Below, piece by piece: positions 52,599 to 60,117 of a DNA stretch of 64,000 bases; position 1 is the stretch's first letter, and every line of letters starts with the position of its first letter. The notes under the pieces are model-generated. The model had not been told where the DNA came from. It made no database searches and saw only the letters and a list, made by a program, of their open reading frames with translations. Source of the stretch: Solirubrobacterales bacterium (GTDB taxonomy: Bacteria; Actinomycetota; Thermoleophilia; Solirubrobacterales; Solirubrobacteraceae); assembly GCA_019240115.1 (NCBI GenBank), contig JAFAYV010000089.1, positions 1 through 64,000 on the forward strand, written 5' to 3'. The position numbers and the translations under genes were made by a program.

Positions 52599-54095
52599 CT
52601 AGTCCTCCCAGCCCAGCGAGCGCTCGACCGCCCGATTCCACTGCGCGTAGCGAGCCTCGCGCTCGGCCTCGTCCATCTCCGGCTCCCAGCGCTTGTCCTC
52701 GGCCCAGCGCTCGCGCAGCTCCTCCTGATCAGACCAGAAGCCGACCGCGAGCCCCGCCGCATAGGCGGCGCCGAGCGCGGTCGTCTCGGTGACCGCGGGA
52801 CGGATGACCGGGACGCCGAGCACGTCGGCCTGGAACTGCATCAGCAGCTCGTTGGCGGTCATGCCGCCGTCGACGCGCAGATCGGTGAACGGCACGTCGG
52901 CGACCGCGTTGGCGGCGTCGACGACCTCGCGGGTCTGCCACGCGGTCGCCTCCAGCGCCGCCCGGGCGATGTGGCCCTGGTTGGCGAAGGCGGTCAGCCC
53001 GACGATCACCCCGCGGGCGTCGTCGCGCCAGCGGGGAGCGAACAGGCCCGAGAACGCGGGCACGAAGTACACGCCGCCGTTGTCGTCGACGCTGCGCGCC
53101 AGCTCCTCGACGGCGGGCGCGTCGGGGATGATCTTCAGCCGGTCGCGCAACCACTGGATGAGCGCTCCGGTGACTGCGATCGACCCCTCCAGGACGTAGG
53201 TGGCGGGTCGGTCGCCGAGCTTGTAGCCCGGGCTGGTCAGCAGCGACTCGGTGTGGACGATCTCCTCGCCGGTGTTGACGAGCAGGAACGACCCGGTGCC
53301 GTAGGTGTTCTTGGCGTCGCCCGGGTCAAAGCAGGTCTGGCCGAACAGCGCCGCCTGCTGATCGCCGAGGATCCCCGAGATCGGCACGCCACCGATCGCG
53401 GTCCCCTGAGCCTCACCGTAGTCCTCCGAGCTCGAGCGGATCTCGGGCAGCATCGAGCGCGGGATGCCCATCAGCTCGAGGCTCGGCTCGTGCCAGTCGA
53501 GCGTCTCGAGGTTCATCAGCATCGTGCGGCTCGCGTTGGTCACGTCGGTGACGTGGATGCCGCCGCCGGTGCCGCCGGTGAGGTTCCACAGCACCCACGT
53601 GTCCATGTTCCCGAACATCAGCTCGCCGTTGTCGGCGCGTTCCTGGGCGCCGTCGACGTTGTCGAGCAGCCAGCGGATCTTCGGCCCCGAGAAGTAGGTC
53701 GACAGCGGCAGGCCGACCGCGTCGCGCAGCCGGTCGACGCCCCGGTCGCCGGCGAGCTCGCGCACGAGCGGCGCCGTGCGCGTGTCCTGCCAGACGAGCG
53801 CGTGGTGGATCGGCTCGCCGGTGGCCCGATCCCAGACGACGGTCGTCTCGCGCTGGTTGGTGATCCCGACCGCCTTGACATCGCTCGCCTCGGCGGGCGA
53901 GGAGGCGAGCGCGCCGTTGATGACCTCGCGCGTCCGCGTCCAGATCTCGGCCGCGTCGTGCTCGACCCAGCCCGCCTGCGGAGTGATCTGCTCGTGCTCG
54001 CGCTGGTCGACGAACACGATCTGGCCGTCGCGGTCGAACAGGATGAAGCGCGAGCTCGTGGTGCCCTGGTCGATGGCTCCGATGTAGTCAGGCAT
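52599..54095 (-). CDS. glpK: glycerol kinase
   Basis: 498 residues. [20 protein letters not shown] (phosphate 1), [38 protein letters not shown] (phosphate 2), and [20 protein letters not shown] (adenosine). Phosphorylates glycerol to glycerol-3-phosphate. Start overlaps the end of glpF by eight bases; the two form an operon divergent from glpD. Confidence 0.97.
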
Positions 54096-55017
54096 TGGCT
54101 CCTCCTCCGGGTTCGTCGAGTACGTCGGCCGCCTCCTCCACGACCTCGGGGTCGGGCGTCGCGCCGCGGGCGATCAGCACGTTGCGGATGCCGAGGTCGT
54201 AGATGAGCCCACCGACGAGCGCGCCCACCAACGGCCCGATGATCGGGATCCAGAAGTACGTGTTGACGTTGCCGTAGTCCCCCGGCATGGCGAGCGATTT
54301 CCAGCCGGCGATCCACGCCCACAACCGGGGTCCGAAGTCGCGCGCGGGATTGATCGCGTAGCCGGCGTTGGCTCCGTAGGACAGACCGATCGCCACGACG
54401 ATGAAGCCGACGATCAGCGGCGCCAGGTTGCTCTTCACCGGCGCGTTGAACTCGTCGGTGATCGCGAAGATGAAGCCGACGAGGAACGCCGTGCCGATCA
54501 CCTGGTCGAAGAACGGCCCGATCCAGGAGTGGAAGTACGGCGCCGGGAACGTGGCGAAGATCGAGTAGGTCCCGAGCGACTTGGGGTCGCCCCTGACGAT
54601 GTGCATCGAGTGGTTGAGGCTGTCGATCGCTGCGCGATAGTTGAAGTAGACGATCGCCGCACCCACGAACGCGCCGAGCACTTGGGCGAGGCAATAGGAC
54701 GGGACCTTGCGCCACGGAAAGCCGCGTCGCGCGGCCTGCGCGAGCGTCACCGCGGGATTCAGATGCGCGCCGCTGATGCCGCCGGCCACCCAGACCGCGA
54801 ACGCGACGGCGAACCCCCAGCCCCAGGCGATCAGCAGCCAGTCCGCCTGGGCGGCGAACGCCTCCTTGCCGCGCCCGGACTGGTTCAGCGCCGCCACCAC
54901 CATCGCCACGACGCCGTCGCCGAACGCGATGATGATCATCGTGCCGAGGAACTCGGCCACCAGCTCGCCAAGGGTTGACCGCTGCCAGCGCCACCGCCGG
55001 CCGTTCGCCGTCGCCAT
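54088..55017 (-). CDS. glpF: glycerol uptake facilitator (aquaglyceroporin)
   Basis: 309 residues with six membrane helices and both NPA boxes: [16 protein letters not shown] and [16 protein letters not shown]. The Asp after the second NPA marks glycerol-type channels. C-terminal acidic tail in the cytoplasm. ATG 55017; GGGAGGAG upstream. Confidence 0.95.
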
Positions 55018-55070
55018 GTCTCCTCCCTCTGTGGAGGTCGATTATTATCATGCCGAGCTAGCCTGGAGGG
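55018..55070. promoter_or_regulatory. divergent glpF/glpD promoter region
   Basis: 53 bases with an AT-rich core (GATTATTATCATG) able to hold overlapping promoters for both directions. No GlpR-type operator recognised. Confidence 0.45.
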
Positions 55071-56813
55071 ATGTCCCTCACGACCGCGGATCCGGCCCGG
55101 CTCGGACCCGAGCAGCGCGCGGCGTCGGTGGCGCGACTGCGGCGTGAAACGTTCGACGTGCTCGTCATCGGCGGGGGCTCCACGGGGACCGGGGCCGCGC
55201 TCGACGCCGCCACGCGGGGGCTGTCGGTGGGTCTCGTCGAGGCACGCGATTTCGCTTCGGGGACGTCGAGTCGCTCCTCGAAGCTGATCCACGGCGGGCT
55301 GCGCTACCTCGAGCAGATGGAGTTCCACCTCGTGCGCGAGGCCCTGCGCGAGCGCAGCCTCCTGCTCAACGTCATCGCCCCCCACCTCGTGCGTCCGGTC
55401 GCGTTCCTGTATCCGCTCGAGCATCGGGTGTGGGAGCGGATCTACGTCGGCTCGGGGATGCTGCTCTACGACGAGCTCGGCGGGCACCGCGGCATGCGCC
55501 GCCACCGCCACCTCACCAAGCGCCAGGCGCTGAAGCTCGCCCCCGCGCTGTCGCCCAAGGCTCTCGTCGGCGCCCTGCAGTACGACGACTGCCAGGTCGA
55601 CGACGCGCGCCACACGCTCGCGGTCGCGCGGACCGCGGCGCGGTTCGGCGCCGCGGTGGCCAACTCGATGTCGGTCGTCGGCTTCCGGCGCGAGGGCGGC
55701 CGGGTCGCCGCCGCGACCGTCCGCGACCACGTCTCCGGGGAGCAGTTCGACATCCGCGCCCAGGTGGTCATCAACGCCACCGGCGTGTGGACCGATGAGC
55801 TCCAGCACCTCGTCGGCGAGCGCGGCAAGTTCCACGTCACCGCCTCGAAGGGCATCCACCTCGTCGTGCCGCGCGACCGCCTCCAGCTCGACACCGGTCT
55901 CATCCTGCGCACCGAGCGCAGCGTGCTGTTCGTCATCCCGTGGGGTCGCCACTGGCTGATCGGCACCACCGACACCGAGTGGAAGCTCGACAAGGCCCAC
56001 CCCGCGGCGAGCCGCGCCGACATCGACTACGTGCTCGCCCACCTCAACGCGGTGCTCGAGCAGCCGCTCGGCCACGAGGACGTCCAGGGGGTCTACGCCG
56101 GGCTGCGGCCGTTGCTGTCGGGCGAGTCCGAGGGCACCTCGAAGCTGAGCCGCGAGCACGCGGTCTCCTCCCCGACGCCGGGATTGGTCGCGGTCGCCGG
56201 CGGCAAGTACACGACCTACCGCGTCATGGGCCGGGACGCGGTCGACGCCGCCGTGCACAGCCTCGACGCCAAGGTCGCGCCCTCGGCGACCGACACGACG
56301 CCGCTCATCGGGGCCGACGGCTACCACGCGCTGTGGAACGGACGGCACCGGCTCGCCGCCGAGTCCAACCTGCACGTGGCGCGGATCGAGCACCTCCTGC
56401 ACCGGCACGGCTCGTGCATCCACGAGCTGCTCGAGCTGATCGCCGCGCGCCCCGAGCTCGCCGAGCCGCTGCCCGAGGCCGACGACTACCTCGCCGTCGA
56501 GGCGCGGTACGCCGCCTCCCACGAGGGCGCGCTGCACGTCGACGACGTGCTCGCCCGGCGCACGCGCATCTCGATCGAGAGCTGGGACCGCGGCGTGGCC
56601 GCCGCCCGTCCGGTCGCGATGCTGATGGCCGAGGTGCTCGGCTGGAGCGAGGACGTCGTCGCCCGCGAGGTCGAGCTCTACGCGGCCCGGGTGGCCGCCG
56701 AGCGCGACTCGCAGCGCCAGGCGGACGACCGGACGGCCGACGCGGCGCGCCTGACGGCGCCCGACGCGCTCGCCGGCGCTCAGGGCGAAGGCGCGAGCCG
56801 GGCAGGCCACTGA
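55071..56813 (+). CDS. glpD: FAD-dependent glycerol-3-phosphate dehydrogenase
   Basis: 580 residues. FDVLVIGGGSTGTGAALDAA binds FAD, GTSSRSSKLIHGGLRYLEQM is the substrate-site signature, and GLVAVAGGKYTTYRVMGRDA the second FAD block. Oxidises glycerol-3-phosphate to dihydroxyacetone phosphate at the membrane and reduces quinone. Completes the glycerol pathway with glpK and glpF across the divergent promoter. Confidence 0.97.
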   Translation: MSLTTADPARLGPEQRAASVARLRRETFDVLVIGGGSTGTGAALDAATRGLSVGLVEARDFASGTSSRSSKLIHGGLRYLEQMEFHLVREALRERSLLLNVIAPHLVRPVAFLYPLEHRVWERIYVGSGMLLYDELGGHRGMRRHRHLTKRQALKLAPALSPKALVGALQYDDCQVDDARHTLAVARTAARFGAAVANSMSVVGFRREGGRVAAATVRDHVSGEQFDIRAQVVINATGVWTDELQHLVGERGKFHVTASKGIHLVVPRDRLQLDTGLILRTERSVLFVIPWGRHWLIGTTDTEWKLDKAHPAASRADIDYVLAHLNAVLEQPLGHEDVQGVYAGLRPLLSGESEGTSKLSREHAVSSPTPGLVAVAGGKYTTYRVMGRDAVDAAVHSLDAKVAPSATDTTPLIGADGYHALWNGRHRLAAESNLHVARIEHLLHRHGSCIHELLELIAARPELAEPLPEADDYLAVEARYAASHEGALHVDDVLARRTRISIESWDRGVAAARPVAMLMAEVLGWSEDVVAREVELYAARVAAERDSQRQADDRTADAARLTAPDALAGAQGEGASRAGH

Positions 56814-57368: not shown

Positions 57369-58748
57369 TTAACCGCCGATCGCCGGCGCGAGCTCTCCGA
57401 TGGCGTCGAGATCTCGCCGCGCAGGGGCAGCCGCGCGATCGGCACGTTCGTCAGTGACCACGCTCAGGAAGGTCGCCACGATGCCTGGGTCGAACTGACC
57501 GCCGGCATTGGCCAGCAGCTCCGCCCGCGCGACGTCGTAGGAAAGCGCCTTGCGGTACGACCGGTCCGTCCGCATGGCGTTCCACGAGTCGCAGCAGGCG
57601 ATGATCCGGGCCTCCAATGGAATGGCGTCGGCGACGAGGCCGTCGGGATACCCACCGCCGTCCCACCGCTCGTGGTGCGAGCGCACGATCAGCCCCACGC
57701 TGCGCATGAAGCCGCCGATGCGGTCGAGCATCTTCTGACCTTCGACGGTATGGGTCTCGATGATCCTCCACTCCTCGGGATCGAGCTTTCCCGGCTTGTT
57801 GATGATCTCCTTGGGGATCGCGATCTTGCCCACATCGTGCAGCAGCGCTCCGAACTCGAGGTTGCGCCGCCGCTCGGCGTCCAGACCGAGGGCGTCACCC
57901 AGGCTGAGCGCGAGCCGGACCACGCTCTTGCAATGCTCGCCGGTGTAGCCGTCGTCGGCCTCGACCACGTCACCGAGCACGAGCGCTGTCCCGCGGTAGG
58001 CCACGTTGAGCTCGAGCAGGCTCTCGATCCGCGCACGGCGCTCGCGGGCGAACGTGGCCAGGAGGGCGAGCAGGGGCAGGGGCGCCAACGCGACGATGGC
58101 GGTCTTGTGGATATCTTCGGCCACGACCAGGGCCATCGCCGACAGCCCGGCGTCGATCCCGTAGACCCAGGTCTCGCGAAGCTGGGCGGAGAGACCGACA
58201 TCGCGGTCGAGCCGGAACCGAAGGGCCGAGACAGCGAAGTCGGTCAGGAACTGGGCGACCAAAGCGATGGTCAGCAAACCGGCCCCAGCCAGTCGCGGCT
58301 GGGTGCCCGAAGCCGCGAACACCATTGCCGGACCGAGCGCGAACCACGAATTGGCCACGGCGAGCAGCACGCGGCTCGGGCGCGTCCTGCGGCGGATCAC
58401 CTCGGGCAGCGCCGCGAGCATCAAGGCGCCCACGGTGGCCAGCGGAACGATGGCCACAGGGATGGCAAAGAGCAGAGGGACAAAGGCCAGCTGCGTCGCG
58501 ACGGTGAAGCCCAGTGGCGTCGCGAAGCGCACGCGCATGGCGAGCACCAGAACGAGCAGGCACATCACCGCGGGGAGCGGAGAGAACGTATGCGGCGGAG
58601 CGAGCCACCACACCCCTGCCGCCGCGGCAACGAACGCCATCGCGAATCCGGTCTCCAGCCGCCGCTCGCGCTTGGGCATGCGCGAGCCCGCCCGGCGGAG
58701 CGTCTCCGCGAGCAGCTCCTGCTCTTCGAAGCTCGGCTTCAGCGCCAT
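57369..58748 (-). CDS. membrane HD-GYP domain protein, probable c-di-GMP phosphodiesterase
   Basis: 459 residues. The N-terminal half (about 33-235) has six to eight hydrophobic helices. The C-terminal HD-GYP domain (about 250-430) has H272 (GEHCKSV), HD at 304-305 (LLHDVGKIAIPKEIINKPG), HHE at 358-360 and DGGGYP at 363-368 (RWDGGGYPDGL). HD-GYP enzymes hydrolyse cyclic di-GMP. ATG 58748 starts the conserved part; a longer upstream frame runs into the riboswitch region. A class I c-di-GMP riboswitch lies 138 bases away on the other strand, so enzyme and sensor RNA are neighbours. Confidence 0.93.
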   Translation of the reverse strand: MALKPSFEEQELLAETLRRAGSRMPKRERRLETGFAMAFVAAAAGVWWLAPPHTFSPLPAVMCLLVLVLAMRVRFATPLGFTVATQLAFVPLLFAIPVAIVPLATVGALMLAALPEVIRRRTRPSRVLLAVANSWFALGPAMVFAASGTQPRLAGAGLLTIALVAQFLTDFAVSALRFRLDRDVGLSAQLRETWVYGIDAGLSAMALVVAEDIHKTAIVALAPLPLLALLATFARERRARIESLLELNVAYRGTALVLGDVVEADDGYTGEHCKSVVRLALSLGDALGLDAERRRNLEFGALLHDVGKIAIPKEIINKPGKLDPEEWRIIETHTVEGQKMLDRIGGFMRSVGLIVRSHHERWDGGGYPDGLVADAIPLEARIIACCDSWNAMRTDRSYRKALSYDVARAELLANAGGQFDPGIVATFLSVVTDERADRAAAPARRDLDAIGELAPAIGG

Positions 58749-58885
58749 CTTCAGGCCTCTATCGGAACGCGACCCCCTGACCGTTAGGCCTGGTCGAGGC
58801 GGGTGATCCAACGTTGGTCCAGATTCGTGGCCACCGGACGTCCGTTTCCCGTTCGCGGCCGACAACCAGAGCACAAACCTCACTG

Positions 58886-58962
58886 AAAAGGGCAAACCCG
58901 GCGCGAGCCGGGGACGCAAAGCTAGAGGTCTCGCAAGGCGCGAGATAGCTCGGTTGCCGATG
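58886..58962 (+). promoter_or_regulatory. class I cyclic-di-GMP riboswitch (GEMM-I)
   Basis: Matches the GEMM-I consensus closely: AAAGGGCAAACC, hairpin CCCGGC-GCGA-GCCGGG with a GNRA loop, then the hallmark GACGCAAAGC, second stem GCTA/TAGC enclosing TCTCGC-AAGGC-GCGAGA, and closing GGTTGCCGATGG. Only loop sequences differ from the Vibrio Vc2 example. Directly downstream CACC-AAGGAA-GGTG can fold over the ribosome binding site (GGAAGG, 58971-58976) of the secreted-protein gene at 58984. c-di-GMP binding would therefore switch translation; whether on or off is not certain. Confidence 0.96.
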
Positions 58963-58983
58963 GACACCAAGGAAGGTGCACCG

Positions 58984-59694
58984 ATGACGCAGTACCTTTT
59001 CAGCCGTCGCTCGCGGGTCCTGAGCCTGTCGGGCCTGCTTGCCGTGCTCGTGGCCGGCGTGGCCGCAAGTCCGGCGCTGGCCGCTTCTGCGGCTCCTCCG
59101 GCGCCGTCCGCTCCCGCGGCGACACCGGCCCCCCTGCCGCCGGCCCCTCCGGTGCCGGCGAAGTCGAGCGGGGTCACGTCCGTGGACACCTCGGCGTGCA
59201 CGGATCCCAGCCTGAGCCAGCCGTTCGCCTCAAGCAAGGACGCCAACTGGTACACGCTGGTGCCCGGTCAGTCACCCGATCAGTTCGACGGGGATGGCTG
59301 GACGCTGAGCGGCGGTGCGAAGATCGTCACCACGCAGCTCCAGGACGGTCAGACCGGCACGGTGCTCGATCTGCCCAGCGGCTCGTCCGCGGTCAGCCCG
59401 AACATCTGCGTGACCTCGGCGTATCCGACCGCACGCACGGACGTCCGCGACGTGAGCGGAGCCGAAGGGATCCAGTTCTACGTCTCCTACGAGGGGACCA
59501 ACACGTGGGACAACCCCCAGAACACGGGTCAGGTCCACGGTCAGCAGAGTGATTGGACCCTGTCGGATCCAATCAATCTGCATCCGAGCAACGACACCGG
59601 ATGGCAGATCGTGCGCTTCGGGTTCGTGGCCGGCGGGAAGAACAGCGAGTTCCAGCTCTACGACTTCTACGTCGATCCCCGGATGAAGGGTTAG
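58984..59694 (+). CDS. secreted protein of unknown function under c-di-GMP riboswitch
   Basis: 236 residues. Signal peptide about 1-33 (LSLSGLLAVLVAGVAAS, cleavage near PALAA), Ala/Pro-rich linker 34-62, and a beta-rich domain 65-236: DPSLSQPFASSKDANWYTLV, DQFDGDGWTLSGGAKIVTTQ, SGAEGIQFYVSYEGTNTW, FQLYDFYVDPRMKG. The last part resembles carbohydrate-binding jelly-roll modules. No catalytic motif seen. ATG 58984 is set by GGAAGG and by the riboswitch, which excludes the upstream ATG at 58954. Likely exported surface or matrix protein responding to c-di-GMP. Confidence 0.88.
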   Translation: MTQYLFSRRSRVLSLSGLLAVLVAGVAASPALAASAAPPAPSAPAATPAPLPPAPPVPAKSSGVTSVDTSACTDPSLSQPFASSKDANWYTLVPGQSPDQFDGDGWTLSGGAKIVTTQLQDGQTGTVLDLPSGSSAVSPNICVTSAYPTARTDVRDVSGAEGIQFYVSYEGTNTWDNPQNTGQVHGQQSDWTLSDPINLHPSNDTGWQIVRFGFVAGGKNSEFQLYDFYVDPRMKG

Positions 59695-59729
59695 CAGCCC
59701 CCGAGCCGGAAGTCATCCGTCGCATCTTC

Positions 59730-59764
59730 GGTCCGGCTGCCCGCCGCGGGTGGGCTGCCGGACC
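59730..59764. terminator. bidirectional terminator hairpin
   Basis: GGTCCGGC-T-GCCC facing GGGC-T-GCCGGACC around a GC-rich loop, between convergent genes. Confidence 0.7.
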
Positions 59765-59784
59765 GCGTTCTCCGAGTCCCGCAC

Positions 59785-60117
59785 TCAGGAGATCCCGCGG
59801 GCGACGCACAGCCGCTGCAGCTGCTCCATCGCGTCCGCGGTCCGGGTCGGCAGCGCCTCCAGGGCGGCCGCGGCGGACCGCAGGTCACGGATCGTCACCG
59901 CCCGGGCCTCGAGCGCAAAGCGCCCGAGCCAGCGCACCGCCGCGCGCTCGTAGCGGGCGGGATCGCCGTCGCGCAGCACCAGGCAGATGCGCAGGGCGTC
60001 GTCGAGCGCGATCTGGGGCAGCTCGCGCGCGGCGCCGAGGACCAGCAGCTCGTTGCCGGTCTCCAACGCGCGACGGAACCGTGCGTAGGGGCTGCCCTCG
60101 CTCGACATCGAACACAT
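59785..60117 (-). CDS. small conserved-type helical protein, unknown function
   Basis: 110 residues: SPYARFRRALETGNELLVLG, LDDALRICLVLRDGDPARYE, AAVRWLGRFALEARAVTIRD. Similar-looking helical proteins are common in this bacterial group as far as I recall, without known function. ATG 60117 or 60108. Confidence 0.8.
   Translation of the reverse strand: MCSMSSEGSPYARFRRALETGNELLVLGAARELPQIALDDALRICLVLRDGDPARYERAAVRWLGRFALEARAVTIRDLRSAAAALEALPTRTADAMEQLQRLCVARGIS

Follow-up and report, generated by a model that had tools for sequence, protein, structure and literature searches.

The closest described counterpart of the locus analysed here is Vc1-gbpA of Vibrio cholerae, where the class I riboswitch Vc1 raises expression of gbpA, encoding a secreted GlcNAc-binding protein, in response to cyclic di-GMP (c-di-GMP), as stated in the cited excerpts of that work (PMC4744006). 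Second comes cap/cbpA of Bacillus, where excerpts on the Bacillus cereus group place the c-di-GMP riboswitch Bc2 upstream of the gene for a collagen adhesin (PMC4933901, PMC7423583). For the riboswitch Vc2, the cited excerpts give G20, A47 and C92 as ligand contacts, together with the inter-helix pair C44-G83 (PMC3764141, PMC4744006).

The present locus lies in a stretch of 64,000 nucleotides (the window) from a bacterium of the Solirubrobacterales, class Thermoleophilia. Our main reading, to which we give a probability of about 70%, is that a canonical riboswitch translationally controls a secreted protein resembling carbohydrate-binding modules (CBMs), in a conserved module with a membrane HD-GYP protein (Table 1). 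In the open-licence literature we found no paper that joins this riboswitch, this bacterial class and a sensor resembling transporter S-components, and none on the c-di-GMP biology of these bacteria.

Table 1. Features of the locus, in window positions (protein parts in residues)
Feature	Position	Strand	Basis
Membrane HD-GYP protein, 459 aa	57369-58748	-	Pfam HD_5 (E 3.9e-35); motifs; N-terminal fold
HD-GYP protein: helical membrane domain, ECF S-component-like	about residues 16-246	-	
HD-GYP protein: HD-GYP phosphodiesterase domain	residues 259-422	-	
Intergenic region between the divergent genes, 132 nt, must contain both promoters	58749-58880	.	Sequence scan
c-di-GMP-I riboswitch aptamer (P1, P2 with GCGA tetraloop, P3)	58881-58962	+	Rfam matches, covariation, contact bases
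GCGA (GNRA) tetraloop capping P2	58903-58906	+	
GEMM-I core GACGCAAAGC	58913-58922	+	
Vc2-equivalent contacts	G20 = 58891 G, C44 = 58915 C, A47 = 58918 A, G83 = 58948 G, C92 = 58957 C	+	All canonical
Hairpin CACC-AAGGAA-GGTG at the ribosome binding site (RBS), Shine-Dalgarno (SD) sequence in 6-nt loop	58965-58978	+	Sequence; stem covariation; enrichment in riboswitch leaders
Secreted protein, 236 aa, ATG at 58984	58984-59694	+	Signal-peptide-like start; AlphaFold2; PDB matches
Secreted protein: signal peptide and Pro/Ala linker	residues 1-70	+	
Secreted protein: CBM-like jelly-roll domain	about residues 72-234	+	

Elsewhere in the window, a group II intron that runs off the contig edge has its 5' end on the minus strand of positions 1-64, matched by RF01999 at 36.6 bits, marginally above the cut-off. 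Translations of the open reading frames at 52599-56813 point to a glpK-glpF-like pair with a divergent glycerol-3-phosphate dehydrogenase, an arrangement in which nothing unusual was noticed.

The aptamer and its leader

The original prediction had placed a class I c-di-GMP riboswitch in front of the secreted-protein gene, and the Infernal search that it proposed bears this out. RF01051 (c-di-GMP-I, GEMM-I) matched over its full length (model positions 1-87 of 87) at 58881-58961, with 71.7 bits against a gathering cut-off of 35, and this is the single match above cut-off in the whole genome of 4.03 Mb. The GEMM-I core and the GNRA-capped stem had both been recognised correctly, while the start had been put at 58886, which misses the 5' strand of P1. 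All equivalents of the Vc2 contacts are kept, and they are invariant over 46 aptamers from relatives. An alignment of these 46 aptamers has the expected helices, with 94% of its cells paired, 15 pairs changed on both sides and a covariation score of 0.436 versus 0.176 in shuffles (0 of 500 shuffles as high); a model built from it was used to locate aptamers in the relatives' loci. The RNA of the window is a canonical class I c-di-GMP riboswitch aptamer. Judging from its contact bases it should bind its ligand, and since the A47 equivalent is canonical, c-di-GMP is the ligand to be expected.

A cmscan of the 64 kb window also matched the aptamer to RF03167 (c-di-GMP-I-GGC) at 58882-58962 of the plus strand (68.7 bits, gathering cut-off 59, E 3.8e-14), again over the full length of the aptamer, and Rfam clan competition assigns it to this 'GGC' variant. 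A variant aptamer with changed ligand specificity is nevertheless very improbable: RF01051 gives the higher bit score, and the equivalents of G20 and C92 are canonical. Moreover, the RF03167 consensus (GACGCGAAgC) carries a G where Vc2 has A47, whereas the window has an A. We therefore file the aptamer under c-di-GMP-I, although it passes both cut-offs, and reject the GGC label.

Downstream of the aptamer, no terminator-like element was found before the start codon, which makes translation the likely level of control. Over the whole stretch scanned, 58650-59900, there was no terminator-like match and no match to a sigma-70-type promoter. The small hairpin that had been predicted over the RBS is present, just 5' of the ATG, and recurs beyond chance in related leaders. 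Its stem covaries in a selected set, namely 14 riboswitch leaders from relatives picked for having such a hairpin, in which the stem sequences differ while pairing is kept (82.9% paired, against 51.5% after shuffling; covariation score 0.776, against 0.161; 0 of 500 shuffles as high). When members of the secreted family were compared without selection for the hairpin, an RBS stem of at least three pairs occurred in 10 of 14 riboswitch-bearing and 13 of 64 riboswitch-free members (Fisher P = 0.0004), a comparison to be read with the caveat that three of the 14 are paralogues from one genome. These riboswitch-free members replaced a first control with unrelated genes (34 genes, 32% vs 47%), which was too small and too permissive. 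Since the SD sequence lies in the loop, and since the stem covaries in related leaders, translational control via the RBS hairpin is likely. Folding of the aptamer on c-di-GMP would then compete with, or rearrange, the RNA around this hairpin.

Two relatives (L032, L033) show a different arrangement, with a terminator-like hairpin and a T run between the aptamer and a pilin gene, so that transcriptional control is likely in those cases.

The direction of the switch can be approached by analogy and by predicted folding. By analogy with Vc1-gbpA, the window more probably than not carries an ON switch, in which c-di-GMP would raise output. In constrained folding of the window leader, the SD sequence was unpaired with a value of 0.38 both when folding freely and when the aptamer was forced, and neither SD nor AUG accessibility changed clearly. 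Among the other leaders with an SD hairpin, predicted SD access mostly rose or was unchanged with the aptamer forced, which argues against an OFF switch in the subset to which the window belongs. In leaders with the SD beside P1 it mostly fell, and the two groups differ (P = 0.006). This second subset of the same class speaks for the opposite possibility, in which P1 formed on c-di-GMP would reduce access to the RBS and repress the secreted protein; we regard this as the less probable direction for the window, though a tenable one. Because the window leader is unchanged and the subsets are opposed, folding is weak evidence here; we set aside an ON/OFF call from it, and we infer the direction.

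In six relatives (L086, L091, L094, L113, L115, L119) the SD sequence (AAGGAGG or a close variant) directly adjoins the 3' strand of P1. This suggests direct sequestration of the SD, and thus an OFF switch, in those leaders.

The secreted protein and its divergent neighbour

In line with the original prediction, the gene behind the riboswitch encodes an exported product with a signal-peptide-like start. The product had been called unknown, which still holds insofar as Pfam and NCBIfam have no family for the window's 236-aa protein. Yet it is no longer featureless, as our results show a CBM-like jelly-roll fold in its predicted structure. The AlphaFold2 model is a confident jelly roll (pLDDT 83 on average and above 90 for most of the domain). 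The best Foldseek matches of the domain were CBM4-2, a porphyran-binding CBM and CBM11, 16, 22 and 6, at E values of about 1e-5 to 1e-4, and VIA-align gave Z scores up to 12.3 to CBM6/36.

Within the class, a single-sequence search picked up homologs of the secreted protein in 72 of 398 genomes. Among 61 aligned family members, D86, Y90, R151, W191, D231 and P232 are kept and C72 and C142 are nearly always present; one of the 61 weakly matches Pfam CBM_4_9 (4e-4), and a search of PDB sequences with the family profile returned a sub-threshold GH10 match and nothing else. Sugar binding is plausible from the modelled fold. However, MAM, Eph-receptor and reelin domains also reach Z scores of about 11-12 in VIA-align, about as good as the CBMs, so that the likeness to CBMs does not fix the type of ligand.

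The divergent neighbour is, as had been proposed, a membrane HD-GYP protein. Its HD-GYP motifs are intact (HDVGK, HHERWDGGGYP; also CDSWNAMRTDR), and from these motifs it would be expected to act as a c-di-GMP phosphodiesterase. A firm Pfam match was not found for its N-terminal membrane domain. The model of this domain (pLDDT 94.7) resembles the fold of ECF transporter S-components: the best 18 VIA-align rows were all S-components, with Z scores of 6.4-10.8, and the next row scored 4.8; Foldseek matched the domain to S-components only weakly, at E 0.09. Only a small part of the domain's own mass is extracytoplasmic.

Conservation of the module and its interpretation

Among 89 secreted-family members in loci retrieved across the class (counts that ignore kinship), 47 have a divergent gene encoding the same membrane domain plus HD-GYP, with or without a riboswitch. 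Hence the association of a membrane HD-GYP protein with the secreted protein, noted earlier at this one locus, recurs across the class. Since the window genome has only 7 HD-GYP genes, adjacency by chance is negligible. In other relatives the membrane domain, on either strand, is joined to GGDEF, to both GGDEF and HD-GYP (GAF-GGDEF-HD-GYP) or to a kinase-like region; in two of them (L061, L180), with a secreted-family gene alongside, this region resembles a histidine kinase. A riboswitch precedes only 14 of the 89 members. The HD-GYP neighbour is thus a more conserved partner of the secreted protein than the riboswitch is.

A survey of 101 genomes of the same bacterial family points in the same direction. 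The secreted protein occurs in 34 genomes, each of which has the membrane domain too; overall, the domain is found in 43. A secreted-family gene lies within 2.5 kb of 59 of 87 membrane-domain genes (kinship ignored). Pairing of the secreted protein with the membrane domain is the broader feature, and the riboswitch is present in some lineages only.

The riboswitch has its own distribution: within the class, 165 of 399 genomes contain an RF01051 match. Among 96 distinct riboswitch leaders, a set enriched for the secreted family, the gene that follows encodes a type IV pilin in 15 cases, a member of this family in 14 and an HD-GYP protein in one; most of the others precede genes with a signal-peptide-like start, as judged by a crude rule. 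When 63 secreted-family proteins were placed in a tree, that of the window fell in a seven-member clade (support 100/99) spanning five genomes and two families. The search for the same riboswitch-gene pair in relatives, which the original prediction had called for, found the pair throughout this clade. On the tree as a whole, the riboswitch label changes about 7 times (range 6-8 over bootstrap trees, with a forced minimum of 3, against a mean of 12.8 after shuffling), which indicates that the riboswitch was gained or lost several times.

Several relatives carry aptamers in unusual arrangements. One (L120:1481-1568, in a stretch with masked bases) immediately precedes an HD-GYP gene, which would amount to direct feedback. 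At L125, two aptamers (651-742 and 1396-1487) lie within about 750 nt, each preceding a different type IV pilin gene, and L094 contains another pair, located ahead of genes for similar secreted proteins. Three secreted-gene paralogues of one genome, G216, each have their own riboswitch (L131, L132, L133).

These observations are best explained as follows. The class I riboswitch in the 5' UTR would govern translation of the secreted jelly-roll protein, so that output of this protein would track cellular c-di-GMP. The divergent gene would supply an HD-GYP phosphodiesterase whose ECF-S-component-like membrane domain acts as a sensor, and the riboswitch would make synthesis of the surface protein depend on the very messenger that this partner enzyme degrades. 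As the HD-GYP protein and the secreted protein belong to one conserved module, the riboswitch appears as a lineage-specific layer upon it. The local circuit of the original prediction is therefore supported as a conserved gene neighbourhood, and is a candidate as a regulatory loop; its RNA is not a general part, being absent from 75 of the 89 members. Similarly, the claim that the enzyme lowers c-di-GMP fits the intact motifs in the window, but is not general, given the GGDEF, GGDEF plus HD-GYP and kinase-like versions in relatives. What speaks against our explanation is that the HD-GYP partner is not fixed and that most family members manage without a riboswitch. The lack of a clear shift in SD or AUG accessibility on constrained folding of the window leader also counts against it, as does the origin of part of the hairpin evidence in a selected set and in paralogues from a single genome.

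The chief rival, in part compatible with our explanation, is that the secreted protein is an input and not (only) an output. It might be an extracytoplasmic ligand-binding partner of the ECF-S-like domain, gating the fused cytoplasmic output, and the riboswitch, where present, would be a feedback on receptor supply. This would fit a protein whose association with the membrane domain is closer than that with any single output, and which co-occurs with this domain in all 34 genomes that encode the protein, as well as a membrane domain that resembles small-molecule-binding S-components and has little mass outside the cell. We rate it somewhat short of even odds, as contact between the two proteins is conjectural, 54 of 108 secreted-family members in the 101 genomes (mostly in many-copy genomes) have no membrane-domain neighbour within 2.5 kb, and CBM-like jelly-roll proteins are often surface adhesins.

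Alternatively, the neighbours may be functionally separate. The genome has 25 GGDEF proteins beside its HD-GYP proteins, and the riboswitch might simply read the bulk c-di-GMP pool that they produce, with no special role for the divergent HD-GYP protein. Riboswitches of the same class in relatives mostly lack an HD-GYP neighbour, and the HD-GYP pairing is kept where the riboswitch is absent. Nonetheless, the adjacency persists in many genera, which points to a functional connection of the two proteins, and we consider full separation unlikely. We infer that the secreted-protein gene and the HD-GYP gene of the window are coupled.

A broader proposal, which we put forward tentatively, is that the class possesses an undescribed extracytoplasmic sensing module. 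It would consist of the secreted CBM-like protein and the ECF-S-like sensor with swappable outputs (HD-GYP, GGDEF, both, or kinase). Riboswitches would repeatedly have joined this module or dropped out of it, placing the amount of the secreted partner under control of the messenger. Should the secreted protein and the membrane domain prove to act together, c-di-GMP signalling would have a new kind of input, in which an S-component-like receptor works with a lectin-like protein. In any case, an unannotated secreted family gains a fold and a conserved partner, and this bacterial class gains a testable c-di-GMP circuit for which the riboswitch is a ready reporter.

Comparison with known systems

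Bc2-cap/cbpA resembles the window in having a c-di-GMP riboswitch before a surface adhesin, the window protein being a candidate surface protein. It differs in that the product is a cell-wall-anchored, collagen-binding protein of another phylum, and the cited excerpts mention no HD-GYP neighbour.

The two proteins of the window can be compared with known folds. ECF S-components (RibU, FolT and others) share the fold of the membrane domain, with Z scores mostly of 8-11 against at most 4.8 for unrelated folds. Unlike them, the membrane domain is fused to signalling domains, and sequence identity is only 5-14%. CBM4, 6, 16, 22 and 36 share the jelly-roll fold of the secreted domain, whereas the window protein has no catalytic domain attached.

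The gbpA product binds GlcNAc and chitin, and is not known to have the jelly-roll fold of the window protein. Vc1-gbpA further differs from the window in its longer leader, the covarying RBS hairpin being a feature of the window, and the cited excerpts describe no conserved divergent phosphodiesterase partner (PMC4744006). What the two systems have in common, as far as these excerpts go, is a class I riboswitch in the 5' UTR of a gene for a secreted carbohydrate-binding (or, in the window, carbohydrate-binding-like) protein, the same contact bases, and the lack of a terminator before the gene (PMC4744006).
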